Positions 11,706 through 60,725 of a DNA stretch of 64,000 bases are shown here, piece by piece (the stretch's first letter is position 1; each line of letters starts with the position of its first letter). This DNA is from Flavobacteriaceae bacterium CRH (lineage in GTDB: Bacteria; Bacteroidota; Bacteroidia; Flavobacteriales; Flavobacteriaceae): NCBI GenBank assembly GCA_001507425.1, contig LMAJ01000012.1:1-64000 (forward strand), given 5' to 3'. The translations under genes were made by a program, and so were the position numbers. The notes under the pieces are model-generated. The model was given only the letters and a program-made list of their open reading frames with translations. It ran no database searches and was not told where the DNA came from.

Positions 11706-11745
11706 TTAGGTTCAGAGTTGCAAAGGTTCAGAGGTACAAAGGTTA
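11706..11745. repeat. Repeat arm 1 flanking the four-helix-bundle gene
   Basis: This tract is built of AGGTTCAGAG and GCAAAGGTTCAGAGGTACAA units. It is homologous, in inverted orientation, to the tract at 12169-12211 on the far side of the four-helix-bundle gene. It touches the stop codon of that gene. Confidence 0.65.
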
Positions 11746-12102
11746 GTTTCTTGCTTTTATTTTTCTGATAAAAGCACTTAACATTCGCTCTATTTCTCTG
11801 CTTTCTCCATTTATTTTATTGAATTGATTCTCGGTTATATATTTTAAATTGAATGAAATTTCAAGCTGAGTTTGTATTTCGAATAATGATGAAATTGAAA
11901 TATTTAAAAATCTCAGATTATCATTATTTCCATCTCTGCCATAACCTTCTGCAATATTACTGGGTATTGATATTGAACTTCTTCGAATTTGTGAAGATAG
12001 GCCATATATTTCTTCCTTCGGAAATGAATTTGTGAGCTGGTAAATTTCGGTAACTAAGTTCATTGATTTCTGCCAGATCAAAAGGTCTCTAAAAGTATTC
12101 AT
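11743..12102 (-). CDS. Four-helix-bundle protein (23S rRNA IVS-protein/Avd-like family)
   Basis: 119 residues from the ATG at 12102 (MNTFRDLLIWQKSMNL). The longer frame from 12129 adds only a weak nine-residue leader. Diagnostic motifs are FPKEEIYGLSSQIRRSSISI and SNIAEGYGR, the hallmark of the S23/four-helix-bundle family. That family includes proteins encoded in 23S rRNA intervening sequences and the Avd accessory proteins of diversity-generating retroelements. No reverse transcriptase or rRNA gene is near. Homologous inverted repeats lie on both sides, so the gene may sit in a mobile or repeat-borne cassette. Confidence 0.88.
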   Translation of the reverse strand: MNTFRDLLIWQKSMNLVTEIYQLTNSFPKEEIYGLSSQIRRSSISIPSNIAEGYGRDGNNDNLRFLNISISSLFEIQTQLEISFNLKYITENQFNKINGESREIERMLSAFIRKIKARN

Positions 12103-14966: not shown

Positions 14967-15319
14967 CAGATTAAAATTTGAATCGCATTTTATTTTATGC
15001 GGATTACAAAATTAGGAATCACAATCGATTTTAAATAGTAAAAAGGCAATATAATATGTTAAAACCGATAAAAACAGGAAAATTCTTTCAGTAAAGTAAT
15101 TACCACAAAGTCTCTAAGTCTTTTTTCTTTTATTTGAATATGTCTACAGTTTGTCATCCTGAGGTACGAAGGATTACACGTGAAATTCTACAAGATTGTC
15201 GAATTTCTGTGCGGAGTTCCTAGTGTGATCCTTCGTACCTCAGGATGACATAAAAAGGGAAAATTTGAGATTAACGGATGTAAAAACAAAAAACCTTTGT
15301 GTCTTCGCGGCAAAAAACT
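14967..15319. repeat. Intergenic stretch with one long-palindrome repeat (15152-15250)
   Basis: No gene is visible. The region contains a dispersed element with 28-bp arms, TGTCATCCTGAGGTACGAAG... at 15152-15179 and its complement at 15223-15250 (one mismatch). The short core includes GAAATTC/GAATTTC. The same family occurs at 34572-34675, and its right arm at 1-28. Confidence 0.85.
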
Positions 15320-19830: not shown

Positions 19831-20180
19831 GAGGTTCAAAGAGGCAAAGGTTCAGAGCGACAAAGGTTTCTATAGAAGACTAAAAAGAAAAACCTTTGAA
19901 CCTCAAAAAACAAACAATTCAGTAGCAAAAATCAACAACTCAGTATTATTTAGTTTTAAAAGAATAAAAACCAACATACTTTTGAAGTATAAATTAAAAG
20001 GAACAAAAAAGCAAAGTGACAAAGGTTCAAAGTTTTAGGAATATTAATAATAAGAAAATCAAACCTTTGTGACTTTGTAGCTCTTAACCTCTGAACCTTA
20101 AAAAAAAGAATTTTAATCATCAATAAAAAAACTTAGAGACTTAGCACCTCAGAACCTTAGTAACTTAAAAAAAAAGAATC
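19831..20180. repeat. Repeat-rich intergenic stretch
   Basis: About 350 bp without a gene. It holds several diverged copies, in both orientations, of the AGGTTCAAAGAGGCAAAGG and AACCTTTGTGACTTTG type repeat (for example 19830-19870, 19890-19912, 20007-20036 and 20055-20100). These can pair into long hairpins. They probably separate the TonB receptor transcript from the genes downstream. Confidence 0.65.
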
Positions 20181-25701: not shown

Positions 25702-27129
25702 TTATACTTTTTTTAAGCCTAATTTTTCTGCTCTTTTAATCACAAAATCATAAGCAGCCTGATATTCATTCGGAATATCACCTTCTAAAATAGCTTCTTT
25801 CACCGCTTCTTTCAAAACTCCAATTTCACGCGAAGGTTTCAAATCGAACATTTCCATAATTTCTTCGCCTGAAATTGGCGGTTGAAAATTGCGAACATGA
25901 TCGCGTTCTTCAACTTCAACAATTTTCTTGCGGACAATTTCGAAGTTTTTATGATATTTTTTAAATTTCGACGGATTTTTGGTTGTAATATCAGCTTCGC
26001 ACAACGTCATTAAATTTTCGACATCTTCGCCGGCATCAAAAACCAAACGACGAACGGCACTGTCTGTTACGATATCCTCGGCCAGGACAATAGGGCGAGA
26101 ACTCATAATAACCATTTTTTGCACAAACTTCATTTTGTGGTTTAAAGGCATATGCAAGCGTTCGAATATTTTCTTAGCCATTTTTCCGCCAAGAAATTCA
26201 TGTCCGTGAAAAGTCCAGCCTTGTTTTTTATTGAAACGTTTTGTTGGCGCTTTTCCAATATCATGCAATAGAGCCGACCAACGCAACCAGACATCATCTG
26301 TATTAGGGCAAATATTATCTACAACTTCAAGTGTATGATAAAAATTGTTTTTATGCGTGTGACCTTCAATTTCTTCCACCTGATTTAAAGCAGTTAATTC
26401 AGGTAAAATAATATCTAAAAGCCCGGTTTGATATAAAAGTAAAAACCCGACAGAAGGTTTATCGGTCGAAAGAATTTTGTTCAATTCATCAACAATACGT
26501 TCGCCTGAAATAATGTTGATTCTCTCCGCATTTTTGGTAATCGCATCAAGAGAATTTTTCTCGATTTCAAAACTTAGCTGATTTGCAAAGCGAATGGCAC
26601 GAAGCATTCGCAAAGGATCATCAGAATAGGTAATGTCAGGATTTAATGGTGTTTTGATTATTTTATTTTCTAAATCTGCCAAACCATTAAAAGGATCAGA
26701 AAGATCTCCAAAAGTTTTTTCGTTCAACGATAAAGCCAAAGCATTGATAGTGAAATCACGACGATTTTGATCATCTTCCAGCGTTCCGTTTTCAACAATT
26801 GGATTTCGGCTGTCAAAATTATAAGATTCTTTTCTTGCGCCAACAAATTCAATATCAGTGCCGTCATAGTGAAGCATTGCTGTTCCGTAAGTTTTAAAAA
26901 CCTGTACTTTTGGATTTTTTGGAAGTAATGCAGATACTTTAAGCGCTAATTCAATACCGCTGCCAACAGCAACAACATCAATGTCTTTTTTAGAACCTCT
27001 GTTTAAAAGCAAATCCCTGACAAAACCTCCAATTACATAACTGTCGATGTTTAATTCCTGAGATGCTTTCGAAATAACTCCGAAGATTTTATTTTGTAAA
27101 GCTGTTTTATAGTTTGTTTGTATAGCCAC
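25702..27129 (-). CDS. CCA-adding-type tRNA nucleotidyltransferase with HD domain
   Basis: 475 residues. Class II nucleotidyltransferase motifs are GGFVRDLLL and KDIDVVAVG (catalytic Asp pair), then [21 protein letters not shown] and [11 protein letters not shown]-terminal HD domain ([13 protein letters not shown]) with the GHE motif and [11 protein letters not shown] follows. It adds or repairs tRNA 3' CCA. The start codon is GTG at 27129, and that GTG lies inside a dispersed repeat (GTGAATTCGTGGC), with no ATG available upstream in frame. It lies 14 bp from the stop of the GxxExxY gene. Confidence 0.9.
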
Positions 27130-27823
27130 GAATTCACTAATTTTTATAAAATAATACGTTTGTATTCAAGTGAGGTAGAATTAAAGTTTGCTAAAATTGC
27201 TAAATGTGTTTTAGAAACTTTTAGATAATTCAGACATTGCGAAATATGTTTAGGATGTAGAAAATCACTTGATTTTATTTCAAGTATAATTTTATCAAAC
27301 AAAACAAAATCAGCATAGAACTTATGATTCAAAATTATGTCTTTATAATTTACTAAATATTCTTTTTCTCTTTCAAATGGAATATTCGCTTTTCTAAATT
27401 CATATTCTAAAGCGTATTTATAAACGATTTCAGAAAAACCTCCACCTAAATTTCTATGAACATCAAATAAAATTCCCATTATTTGATAACTTTCTAGTTG
27501 ATATAATATTTTTGTCATGATCTAAAATTTTTCCGCCACGAATTCACGATTTTTTTTTAATTAATTTTTAAAAAGTTAATTCGTGAATTCGTGGCTATTA
27601 TTTAGAATACAACTTTCAATTTTATATTGAATGTTATTTGGAATTTTATGGTTGCAAATTTACAACATAGAAAATGCCTTTTATAATCTATCGTTCACTT
27701 TTTTGAACAAATTCATAATTTTTCAATTGAAATTTATTAAAATTAAAAATGATGATTGTTAATTGCACGAATTAATACAAATTATGCTCATAGATTAATA
27801 AAGAAAATTCGTGAATTCGTGGC
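27125..27823. repeat. Four copies of GTGAATTCGTGGC around the GxxExxY gene
   Basis: The 13-base word occurs on the minus strand at 27125-27137 and 27535-27547 and on the plus strand at 27583-27595 and 27811-27823. The first two are direct repeats on either side of the GxxExxY gene. The 27535 and 27583 copies face each other as a hairpin. The first supplies the GTG start of the nucleotidyltransferase gene, and the last lies before YaaA. The remaining DNA in 27600-27810 is AT-rich and featureless. Confidence 0.85.
27144..27518 (-). CDS. GxxExxY protein (PD-(D/E)xK nuclease-like fold)
   Basis: 124 residues of the GxxExxY (PDDEXK_3) family. Visible are [15 protein letters not shown], which contains the naming motif, and the nuclease-like core [17 protein letters not shown], with Asp and the ExK pair that would bind metal. 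The family is very common in Bacteroidota and environmental genomes, and its function is unproven. Here the gene is bracketed by direct copies of GTGAATTCGTGGC. It is worth comparing with the four-helix-bundle gene at 11743, another small gene in repeat arms. Confidence 0.88.
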
Positions 27824-27915
27824 GAAAAAAAATATGGTATAATAAAACAAATCAATTACGATATCACATTTTTAAAGATTCAATTTGTATTTTTGAATTC
27901 TATAAAAATGCACAA

Positions 27916-28674
27916 ATGAAAATTGTTATATCGCCTGCGAAGTCATTAAATTTCGAAAAAGAATTACCAACTACTCAATATACAGAACCTTCTTTTTTAA
28001 AAGAAGCCCGTTTGGTTCATAAAGTTTTAAAACCTAAAAAACCAGCGGAATTATCCCAATTAATGTCAATTTCAGACAAATTAGCTGATTTGAACTGGGA
28101 GCGCAATCAAAAATGGAAAACACCTTTTTCGCCGGAAAATGCACGCCCGGCAGTTTATACTTTTGATGGTGATGTGTATACAGGTTTAGATGCTTATTCA
28201 ATTCCGTTAGAAAAGCTGGATAATTTGCAAGATAAACTCCGAATTTTATCCGGGCTTTATGGCGTTTTAAAACCCTTGGATTTAATGCAGGCTTATCGTC
28301 TGGAAATGGGGACAAAATTGCTTGTTGGAGATTATAAAAATCTGCATGAATTCTGGAAACCAACCGTCACTACAGCTTTAAACAAAGAGTTAAAAAAAGG
28401 AGAATTATTTGTAAATTTAGCCAGTAACGAATATTTTTCGGCAGTAGATGTAAAAGCGTTAAAAGTTCCTGTAATTACGCCGGACTTTAAAGATTATAAA
28501 GACGGAAAATTAAAAATGATAAGTTTCTTTGCCAAAAAGGCGAGGGGAATGATGGTGCGTTATATCATTGATACCAATGCAGAAACTATTGATGATTTAA
28601 AAGGTTTCGATTATGATGGATATCATTTTGATGCGAATCTTTCTAAAGGAAATCATTTGGTATTTACGAGATAG
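27916..28674 (+). CDS. yaaA: Peroxide stress protein YaaA
   Basis: 252 residues starting MKIVISPAKSLNFE, the family N-terminus. The GTG-started longer frame at 27811 begins within a repeat and was rejected. Visible motifs are LRILSGLYGVLKPLDLMQAYRLEM and LFVNLASNEYFSAV, as in E. coli YaaA (UPF0246). That protein binds DNA and limits intracellular iron during peroxide stress. A predicted start at 27916 and a length close to the E. coli protein support the call. Confidence 0.92.
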   Translation: MKIVISPAKSLNFEKELPTTQYTEPSFLKEARLVHKVLKPKKPAELSQLMSISDKLADLNWERNQKWKTPFSPENARPAVYTFDGDVYTGLDAYSIPLEKLDNLQDKLRILSGLYGVLKPLDLMQAYRLEMGTKLLVGDYKNLHEFWKPTVTTALNKELKKGELFVNLASNEYFSAVDVKALKVPVITPDFKDYKDGKLKMISFFAKKARGMMVRYIIDTNAETIDDLKGFDYDGYHFDANLSKGNHLVFTR

Positions 28675-28871
28675 GTTTTTTTGAGGCTCAAAGGGGCAAA
28701 GCGACAAAGATTCAGAGGTTTTTTGAGCTAAGAATCTATCCCGAAGCTTCGGGATTGAGTTACTAAGTTTTTTACTGGAGAGTCGGAGACTCGGGCCATA
28801 TTGTAGGTAGGGATTTTAATCCCTTCAAAATAATAAATTTAGAAATAATTATATTTTTAAATATTGAAAAT
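28675..28871. repeat. Repeat-derived intergenic stretch
   Basis: Contains a diverged GGCTCAAAGGGGCAAAGCGAC repeat (28683-28703), the palindrome CCCGAAGCTTCGGG (about 28740-28753) and GGGATTTTAATCCC. No gene is seen. Confidence 0.6.
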
Positions 28872-34571: not shown

Positions 34572-34675
34572 TTTGTCATTCTGAGGAACGAAGAATCACA
34601 CAGAAAACTCGACAAAGATTGTCGATTCTCTTTGCAGAATTACTTGTGTGATTCTTCGTTCCTCAGAATGACAAA
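34572..34675. repeat. Dispersed repeat with perfect 30-bp arms
   Basis: The left arm TTTGTCATTCTGAGGAACGA... (34572-34601) and right arm (34646-34675) are exact complements, with a core CGACAAAGATTGTCG that folds on itself. It is the clearest copy of the family also seen at 1-28 and 15152-15250. It sits between trpA and its terminator. Confidence 0.92.
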
Positions 34676-52841: not shown

Positions 52842-52918
52842 CCATATAAGTGATATAAGGAAATTTAAGGCTCCGCTTAATTGCATTTTGCTAAAATGAA
52901 CTTATATCACTTATATGG
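52842..52918. repeat. Perfect 18-bp inverted repeat
   Basis: CCATATAAGTGATATAAG (52842-52859) and its exact complement (52901-52918) flank 41 bases with GGCTCCGC. The repeat lies between the divergent MBL and HD genes, where it may affect both promoters. It looks like a Flavobacterium intergenic repeat. Confidence 0.85.
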
Positions 52919-59317: not shown

Positions 59318-59588
59318 TGCTGTTTATTTTTTACAAAGGTGCTCCGATAAAAAGAGATTCACAGTAACATTTATCACATAAGATTTATAAAACACGAATT
59401 TCACGAATTTTCATGAATTGTTTGCTACAGATTAAAAAAGATTATTCTTTGCAGGATAGATTTTTAAACACATAGAGACATAGATTTTCGAACTTTTAAA
59501 AGGCGTTTCACTTGCATTAATTCACATACCTATGTGCGATAACGTGTTATCTTTAATTGTCTTTTTTGCAAACTATAAATCTATGTTT
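59318..59588. repeat. Repeat with ACACATAGAGACATAG arms (copy 1)
   Basis: The element is bounded by AAACACATAGAGACATAGAT (59466-59485) and its complement near 59577-59600 (TCTATGTTTCTATGTGT). Inside is a CATACCTATGTG palindrome. Its right arm includes the last codons and stop TAG of the Crp gene. A second copy at 60230-60363 lies on the other side of that gene. Nothing else is seen. Confidence 0.8.
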
Positions 59589-60218
59589 CTATGTGTTTAA
59601 TAATTCAATCTGGTTTCGGTTTAGTTTAACCAAACCTCTTTGTTCCATTTTTTTGAGTAATCTTGAAACAACTTCGCGGGATGTATTCAGTTCGGTTGCA
59701 ATTTCCTGATGCGAAAGTTTTACTTCCTGACATCCGCAGGCGTCAGAATGTCTTTTGAGGTAAAATTCCAAGCGTTCATCCATTGAGCGGAAAGCAATAT
59801 TATCGACCACTTCAAGAACTTCCTCAAAACGGCTTCGGTAGGTTTCGATTACAAATTCGTACCAGGATCTGTGTTCCATCATCCATTTGTCCATCATTTG
59901 CAGTGGAATCATCATAACCGAAACATCTTCGACAACTTTTGCCATAATCTGGCTTTTTTCGCTTTTGGCAGTACAAATCATAGAAATAGCGCAGGCTTGG
60001 CCCGGTTGCAAATAATACATTAAAAATTCTCCGCCATCTTCGCCTTCACGATAAATTTTGATTTTTCCTTTGGTAATCAAAACTGTGTTTTTAATATATT
60101 GTCCGGTTCGCATTAAAATTGTTCCGGCATCAAAATTTTGCAGGCTTCCGTTTTCTTCGATTGTTGAAATGAGTTCGCTGGAGAAATTCGGAAAGATGTT
60201 TTTAAGTGAATTTTGCAT
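59589..60218 (-). CDS. Crp/Fnr family transcriptional regulator
   Basis: 209 residues. An N-terminal cNMP-binding-type domain (IYREGEDGGEFLMYYLQPGQACAI) and a C-terminal winged helix (VKLSHQEIATELNTSREVVS RLLKKMEQRG) with conserved recognition residues. A CGC motif (HSDACGCQEV) lies between the domains. It may respond to sulfide or redox signals and control the sulfur genes around it. The ORF ends in repeat DNA, and a second copy of the same repeat flanks the start side. Confidence 0.92.
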   Translation of the reverse strand: MQNSLKNIFPNFSSELISTIEENGSLQNFDAGTILMRTGQYIKNTVLITKGKIKIYREGEDGGEFLMYYLQPGQACAISMICTAKSEKSQIMAKVVEDVSVMMIPLQMMDKWMMEHRSWYEFVIETYRSRFEEVLEVVDNIAFRSMDERLEFYLKRHSDACGCQEVKLSHQEIATELNTSREVVSRLLKKMEQRGLVKLNRNQIELLNT

Positions 60219-60725
60219 TGATTATATTTTTAAACACATAGAGACATAGTTTTATAAACCAAAAAAGGCTTTTCACTTTTCATGAGCCCACATAGCTATG
60301 TGTAAATAATGAGTTATTTATTTTGATCTAAACTTAGAAAAATAAATCTATGTCTCTATGTGTTGAAAATTTTATTTTTTGTTACGAATTACACAAAATA
60401 TTCACGAATTAATTTTTGCAAATTCGTGCAATTCGCAGCAAACATTATTATCAAAATAAGATTTAAACCTATAATTTTATACAAAGATAGCAGATTTAAC
60501 GATTATAAATTGAGAGAAATCTATTTTACAGCTGCAATTTATGAAAATGAAAATATCTAATTTTCTATCGATTTTATAGAGTATATTTTTAAAAATAGTA
60601 AGTAAATTTGTCTTTCACTGATTATAATAGTTTCTCTAAAACGTTTTCTGAGAATAATAATCGAAATCGCATTTGGCACGTTTTTAATTAATAGAAACGT
60701 CGTAATTTTACAAAAAACACATATT
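60219..60725. repeat. Repeat-rich intergenic stretch upstream of crp and the rhodanese gene
   Basis: Contains the second copy of the ACACATAGAGACATAG element (60230-60363; internal hairpin CACATAGCTATGTG). It then has an inverted repeat TTACGAATTACACAAAATATTC...TTCGTGCAATTCGCAGC (about 60381-60440). DNA to 60725 is AT-rich. TTTGGCACG at 60672 resembles a -33 region without a well-spaced -7 box. No gene was accepted here. Confidence 0.7.

Follow-up and report, generated by a model that had tools for sequence, protein, structure and literature searches.

Inverted arms around GxxExxY genes and scattered gene-free hairpins in Flavobacterium: a candidate REPIN-like system with a Cas4-like nuclease

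In the 64,000-nt stretch of DNA analysed here (the window), a small gene of the GxxExxY family stands in front of cca and is surrounded by copies of a 13-base word, one of which overlaps the start of cca. The locus raises the question of what these repeats are, how they relate to the gene that they surround, and how both came to stand at the start of cca. We found four exact copies of GTGAATTCGTGGC where an earlier sequence-only reading of this DNA had placed them, at 27125-27137 and 27535-27547 on the minus strand and at 27583-27595 and 27811-27823 on the plus strand. The same reading had two copies bracketing the gene as direct repeats, which was not borne out: the gene lies between inverted arms (27125-27142 and 27578-27595), and the extended pair, 27122-27142 and 27578-27598, is complementary at 95% of 21 nt. 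The true repeat unit is an 18-bp arm, GCCACGAATTCACGAATT, rather than 13 bases, followed by a loop and then the same arm reverse-complemented. The features at this locus are as follows.

25702-27129, minus strand: cca-type tRNA nucleotidyltransferase gene (PF01743, CCA/poly(A)-type), its likely start codon inside an arm
27125-27142, minus strand: downstream arm of the gene-bearing element, holding the likely GTG start of cca (27127-27129)
27144-27518, minus strand: GxxExxY (PDDEXK_3) gene, 124 aa, predicted from profiles, alignment and model to encode a minimal Cas4/RecB-like PD-(D/E)XK nuclease
27535-27595, no strand: short gene-free hairpin using the same upstream arm (27578-27595), from inverted pairing and DNA fold
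27578-27595, plus strand: upstream arm of the gene-bearing element, in inverted orientation to 27125-27142
27806-27823, plus strand: fourth arm, lying before yaaA; the 32 nt at 27799-27830 pair with 27528-27559 at 91%

The word is not confined to this locus. The 5.83-Mb Flavobacterium-like genome that holds the window (G000) has 29 exact copies of GTGAATTCGTGGC, against none of the reversed pattern, and most of them form inverted pairs, that is, 18-bp arms on either side of a variable loop. Outside the window the word marks 14 sites, 11 of which carry inverted pairs by the exact 13-mer criterion, and none of the 25 copies there (L009-L022) falls inside an ORF of at least 100 aa, such ORFs making up 78% of the stretches. 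The short hairpin at 27535-27595 has a predicted DNA fold of -19.4 kcal/mol (z -7.6) that beats all 200 shuffles. That the repeats are a chance or compositional artefact of AT-rich intergenic DNA has next to no probability in our view: 0.89 matches to the 13-mer are expected in the window when two mismatches are allowed, but the excess of exact over reversed copies contradicts this explanation, as do the neighbour-ORF, shuffle and cca controls described below. Further inverted repeats were seen in the window as two long hairpins of the TGTCATTCTGAGGAACGAAGAATC and TGTCATCCTGAGGTACGAAGGAT types, at 34572-34675 and 15152-15250.

The ORF at 27144-27518 exceeds the curated cut-offs of both TIGR04256 (E 4e-37, 127.1 bits against 35) and PF13366 (E 1.6e-32, 112.8 bits against 22). 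Across 43 aligned GxxExxY proteins, E30, D70, E80, K82 and Y98 are invariant and Q94 is kept in at least 90%, and these residues (E, D, ExK, Y and the near-invariant Q) fit the RecB/Cas4 group with its GxxE-D-ExK-QxxxY motif. An AlphaFold2 model of the 124-aa protein (pLDDT 95.1) had Cas4 SSO0001 (4ic1) as its top solved match (Foldseek E 2e-4; Z 9.9 over 98 residues), below which Foldseek ranked lambda-type exonucleases, other Cas4-type proteins and AddAB. A second aligner placed the restriction enzyme BpuSI and others after Cas4 at Z of 7.7 or less, a range that the tool itself deems unspecific. Searching the sequences of solved structures with the protein returned no relative, its one match (E 0.25) not being credible. 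The best reading, judging by the model, is that of a minimal Cas4/RecB-like PD-(D/E)XK nuclease that retains its catalytic residues.

If repeats belong to the gene family, they should also be found at its other loci, and this held in altered form: GTGAATTCGTGGC itself is absent from the other GxxExxY genes of G000, but each of these has arms of its own with a similar design. G000 has seven GxxExxY loci (nine matches), two of them with broken genes (C22 and C5), and all seven are flanked by inverted repeats, with C44 the weakest at a score of 27. The words recurring inside the arms of the other six loci included, by eye, CACGAATT, GCAGATT, ACATAG, ATATAAG, CACAAATT and GCAAAG. To score a locus, the 300 bases preceding a gene were matched locally with the reverse complement of the 300 that follow it, and the best match was taken. 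This score was at least 30 at 117 of 165 GxxExxY genes (161 loci), compared with 10 of 291 neighbouring ORFs from these loci (p=1.7e-44, Mann-Whitney test on the scores). By set, the threshold was reached by 6/7 genes of the window's own genome, 20/30 best hits per genome in the genus, 6/7 cca-linked genes, 16/21 and 20/20 genes in two extra sets, and 49/80 in the genome_contigs set. An initial round on 77 genome_contigs loci put 62% of them at 30 or above, a level reached by 0/30 cca loci and by 0.8% of 770 dinucleotide shuffles. When flanks were taken from different loci, 13.9% of 762 cases reached it, because arm words are shared. The 48 of 165 genes that score below 30 count against a model in which GxxExxY runs the hairpins.

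High scores were found in Bacteroidota, Nostoc, Anabaena, Tolypothrix, one Methylobacter MAG and one Planctomycetota MAG, and words of the CGCAGAG/CGCAAAG type were common to loci labelled Nostoc, Anabaena, Methylobacter (MAG) and Flavobacterium. The share of other phyla reflects an uneven sample, given that a Flavobacterium query was used to find the genome_contigs loci, that the best 80 of 585 were taken and that many of these lie on MAG contigs; some labels may be wrong. The arms are built of approximately 7-mers repeated every 9-12 bp: self-similarity of 234 arms was raised at offsets of 9-12 and 21-23, close to one and two helical turns. Arm similarity rose with protein identity among 111 genes, and this held for pairs less than 70% identical (rho 0.24, reached in 0/500 permutations); below 60% identity the correlation was weak (rho 0.13), which also counts against a GxxExxY-run model.

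Arms also occur without any gene between them. We looked for the arms of six G000 GxxExxY genes (the seventh, C44, was left out), allowing up to 2 mismatches, in 174,514 bases of this genome comprising the window, a 20-kb stretch and 14 stretches picked for the window's own repeat. They recurred away from those genes, and reversed controls gave 0. The C21 arm was found at 4 places, that of C9 at 7, C3 at 9, C22 at 2, C5 at 1 (with 2 mismatches) and the window's own at 33, the last number being inflated because the stretches had been chosen for that repeat and its own arms were counted. Three gene-free hairpins in the window carry arms of genes located elsewhere in G000.

52842-52918, no strand: gene-free hairpin with the arm of the C3 GxxExxY gene, CCATATAAGTGATATAAG (mean 0 in 100 shuffles)
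59466-59598, no strand: gene-free hairpin; its arm, AAACACATAGAAACATAG, is that of the C9 GxxExxY gene (mean 0 in 100 shuffles)
60232-60365, no strand: second gene-free hairpin with the C9 arm AAACACATAGAAACATAG, from the arm match

Scattered arms found with the pattern CRCRRATTCRCRRATT (control hits 0; a gene's own arms included where matching) mainly match the type of the resident gene in the five fully listed genomes: 23/25 in G000, 11/17 in G021, 13/21 in G009 (CACRAATT kind), 4/6 exact in G023, and 36/75 in G005, where this is a plurality only and two other types occur beside it. Such tracking of the resident gene is not universal, as G017, whose arms are worn, has 1 CRCRRATTCRCRRATT copy; G003 has 9, and among the 5 matches listed there 3 are of another variant. 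Gene-negative genomes also have these arms (25 in G044, a 93% complete draft, 8 in G002, 7 in G010, and 1 each in G011 and G016; 0 in five others), and G006, from which the cca-linked gene is gone, has 70, with other arms at the four examined of its six GxxExxY hits. Arms present without a detected cognate gene in G044 and G006 count against a GxxExxY-run model. Across 61 genomes, the CGCAAAG-type word CRCARAGNNCRCARAG has 1,076 copies in the 50 with GxxExxY and 12 in the 11 without, that is, 4.67 against 0.40 per Mb (p=8.7e-5, kinship ignored), and size-matched densities in 30 against 9 genomes gave p=0.002, again with kinship ignored. The word is absent from five gene-bearing genomes (G018, G027, G037, G050, G055), and five gene-negative genomes hold one to six copies.

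The limits of the unit were examined in 48 hairpins from G000, G005 and G006, which include a few tandem duplicates and are not all independent. Arms were identical in 39/48, and pairing was near complete over 18 bp and approximately at background past both ends, while loops ranged from 9 to 274 nt and were mostly unrelated in appearance. No hairpin was seen to move, and no consistent target-site duplication was found in this set, both of which count against a GxxExxY-run model; matching flanks were in small excess at some offsets, such as 12.5% against 6.5% for 5-mers at offset 4 in these partly non-independent hairpins. As a source of clean empty sites, a 20-kb syntenic comparison of G000 C16 with G004, G006, G008 and G015 was rejected, since by eye the same junctions carried different hairpins, and at its site B the hairpin was missing in G004. 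Sites with different hairpins at shared intergenic junctions, also by eye, lie near 535, 1800, 7170 and 10690 of L103 (G000:C16:199000-218999) when compared with L104-L107. The differing hairpins at shared junctions of close relatives suggest either hotspots or replacement. In G005 (L246-L247, C10 and C13), whole hairpin units stand in tandem about 190 bp apart with identical loops.

Hairpins of this kind could be moved by some other enzyme, such as a Y1/RAYT transposase, with GxxExxY a coincidental neighbour. Y1 transposase hits were indeed present in 9/9 genomes searched, but of the 20 hits, the 8 loci examined had cca-type arms in 0 cases and a strong inverted repeat, of different sequence, in one, compared with the arms at 117/165 GxxExxY genes. 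We therefore consider this explanation improbable.

How the gene and its arms came to stand before cca was addressed by searching 25 Flavobacterium genomes, of which 24 had a readable locus (the contig stretch of G002 is cut short). The gene is not fixed among these relatives: it is intact in 8, a remnant in 1 (G001) and absent from 15. The earlier proposal of an insertion before cca remains the simple reading because gene and arms stand where related genomes have none, but the clean empty site with a single repeat copy that it predicted was not found, as gene-less relatives such as G007, G010 and G013 have no arm copy at all. The single arm in G004, G008 and G015 instead reads as a remnant probably left after loss of the gene. 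Neither does a recent insertion fit, given that the eight cca-linked GxxExxY proteins, all at one site, form one clade (96/96), which points to one old insertion and would be consistent with vertical inheritance of the gene at this position.

The arm at 27125-27142 likely supplies the GTG start of cca in the window, as the sequence-only reading had suggested, with a restriction to some genomes. This GTG, which lies in the 27125-27137 copy, is the sole in-frame ATG, GTG, TTG or CTG after the upstream stop and ahead of the conserved NYK in the cca product. Comparing cca starts in 19 genomes, we found the arm GTG to be the only conventional in-frame start ahead of NYK in G000, G004, G015 and G021, but a further start codon lies upstream of it in G001, G006 and G008; in six genomes without the element, cca begins at one ATG. 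Retention of the arm in G004, G008 and G015 despite absence of the gene is plausibly due to cca now needing it.

Upstream of cca, relatives have tsaC, recognised by the Pfam Sua5/YrdC profile (PF01300) in G003, which has the GxxExxY gene, and in G010, which does not, and by eye in the others. In eight species the GxxExxY gene lies between tsaC and cca, and the element sits directly past the stop codon of tsaC in genomes such as G003, G005 and G023. Of tsaC, G000 has at its cca locus just a probable 35-base remnant.

27653-27687, minus strand: probable remnant of the tsaC 3' part (35 nt, matching the tsaC region in G005 and G017 at 89%)

This remnant contains TAAATTTG, which fits the Bacteroidetes -7 box TAnnTTTG, and it may have turned into a promoter.

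The two arms at cca, compared as sequences, have changed together, though the proteins are a single clade. Across 18 sites of the cca-locus arms, mean differences were 0.75 within species and 4.18 between species, and only 8 of 40,320 permutations of upstream and downstream arms among the eight species paired as well as the observed combination. This could have any of three causes: sequence copied from one arm to the other, selection that keeps the arms paired, or a changing protein that recognises them.

Complementary, co-varying arms are also what would be expected of structured RNA. The arms might accordingly act in RNA, folding the transcript around the gene, with GxxExxY as a hairpin-processing enzyme or regulator and the scattered hairpins as regulated sites or decoys. 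Intervening sequences of 23S rRNA are excised by RNase III. A further parallel is that a Coxiella 23S rRNA intervening sequence has tandem heptamers ahead of its S23p ORF, according to PMC4990558. However, the closest match of the fold model is Cas4, a DNA nuclease, after which further DNA nucleases rank, and the copy number, the nesting and the differing hairpins at one junction in relatives resemble mobile DNA. Additionally, an Rfam search of 26500-28800 gave nothing at the gathering threshold. We regard an RNA role of this kind as quite unlikely.

Arms of this design are not exclusive to the GxxExxY nuclease, since similar ones occur at genes for S23-type four-helix-bundle proteins (TIGR02436): an inverted-repeat score of at least 30 was reached by 24/29 such genes with enough flank, mostly from Flavobacterium, with different arm words, e.g., AGGTTCAGAG or TTAGACT. 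The window contains one of them.

11755-12078, minus strand: S23-type (four-helix-bundle) gene, flanked near 11708 and 12183 by inverted arms that contain repeated words

An arm of this gene recurs at 19832. The occurrence of two unrelated small proteins within the same kind of arms would be expected if the hairpins were a mobile or replication-generated family in their own right and GxxExxY, like the S23 four-helix-bundle gene, a homing-type passenger landing in loops, with an enzyme that spreads the gene and not the hairpins. The persistence of hairpins in G044 and G006, where no cognate gene was detected, is in line with this, as is the nesting of elements in the loops of others; in L013 and L021, hairpins of the GCCACAGATT and GCCACGAATT types lie within one another's loops in both orders. 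On the other hand, the gene at cca looks like one old insertion and not like a spreading gene, six GxxExxY genes of G000 have different arms that each recur elsewhere in the genome, and genomes that lack the gene have a lower word density. For these reasons we hold a passenger role to be unlikely, though less so than the RNA role or another transposase.

We favour instead the reading that GxxExxY and the hairpins form a REPIN/RAYT-like system run by a non-homologous nuclease, to which we give a rough probability of 0.55. The GxxExxY genes would be the enzyme-coding members of an inverted-repeat element family, most copies of which in a genome would be short, gene-free hairpins with matching arms and an arbitrary loop. 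The protein might act on the arms by recognising either the phased words or the folded hairpin and cut at the arm boundary, and cutting would mobilise the hairpins, which could then be copied or replaced between genes. Like RAYT, the gene may remain at a single place over the long term.

An open-access literature search, which did not extend to subscription papers or preprints, found no description of an association between GxxExxY and arms and no match to four arm strings; GxxExxY does appear in a reverse-transcriptase neighbourhood in PMC8934634. GxxExxY and four-helix-bundle proteins are encoded by common genes of no known function, for which the arms offer a direct substrate hypothesis, and the model proposed here would account for one class of repeats found between genes in Flavobacterium and in other phyla. 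With slightly less than even confidence, we extend it to a second, independently evolved system of the REPIN/RAYT type over several phyla, in which populations of gene-free hairpins would be maintained by a stand-alone Cas4/RecB-like nuclease that has cognate, helically phased arms, the S23 four-helix-bundle genes forming a sister branch with the same arm design. A nuclease kept over long times together with a hairpin population would, as an independent case, bear on why bacteria tolerate or need these systems, and the sister-branch S23 genes, if this is true, would link the old puzzle posed by rRNA intervening sequences with hairpin elements found genome-wide.

Among known systems, 23S rRNA intervening sequences (S23p) likewise have a short ORF inside an inverted-repeat element, but their protein has another fold, and the elements described here lie between protein genes and not in rRNA. 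The likeness to Cas4/RecB-like nucleases rests on the fold model and the GxxE-D-ExK-QxxxY pattern (Q94, Y98). Cas4 proteins have iron-sulphur cysteines and CRISPR neighbours; in contrast, the GxxExxY protein has 124 aa and its solitary gene stands between arms with the tsaC remnant, cca and yaaA as neighbours. No cysteine was found in the invariant or near-invariant columns of the 43 proteins, nor any CRISPR gene among the direct neighbours identified at the window locus. Like MITEs, the hairpins are short, non-autonomous elements that share terminal inverted repeats with a gene-bearing copy, but GxxExxY does not belong to the recognised transposases, and the hairpins showed no clear target-site duplication. 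The closest parallel in layout is with REPIN/RAYT, as an inverted pair of conserved ends with a variable spacer is scattered between genes. According to PMC3116915 and PMC8049555, REPINs are likewise short extragenic inverted-repeat hairpins with conserved ends, less conserved spacers and compensatory changes, accompanied by a vertically inherited single gene, and their copies are more numerous with that gene and persist without it. In REPINs, too, arms are kept while loops vary (PMC3116915), and genomes lacking the transposase retain REPINs at lower number (PMC8049555). Unlike REPIN/RAYT, the arms here consist of approximately 7-mers at 9-12 bp spacing, many genomes have several GxxExxY genes, in G000 each with its own arms, and the predicted enzyme is a PD-(D/E)XK nuclease (PDDEXK_3) and not a Y1 HUH transposase (PF01797). 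It is because of this enzyme type that the system is not a REPIN/RAYT, even with so similar a layout.
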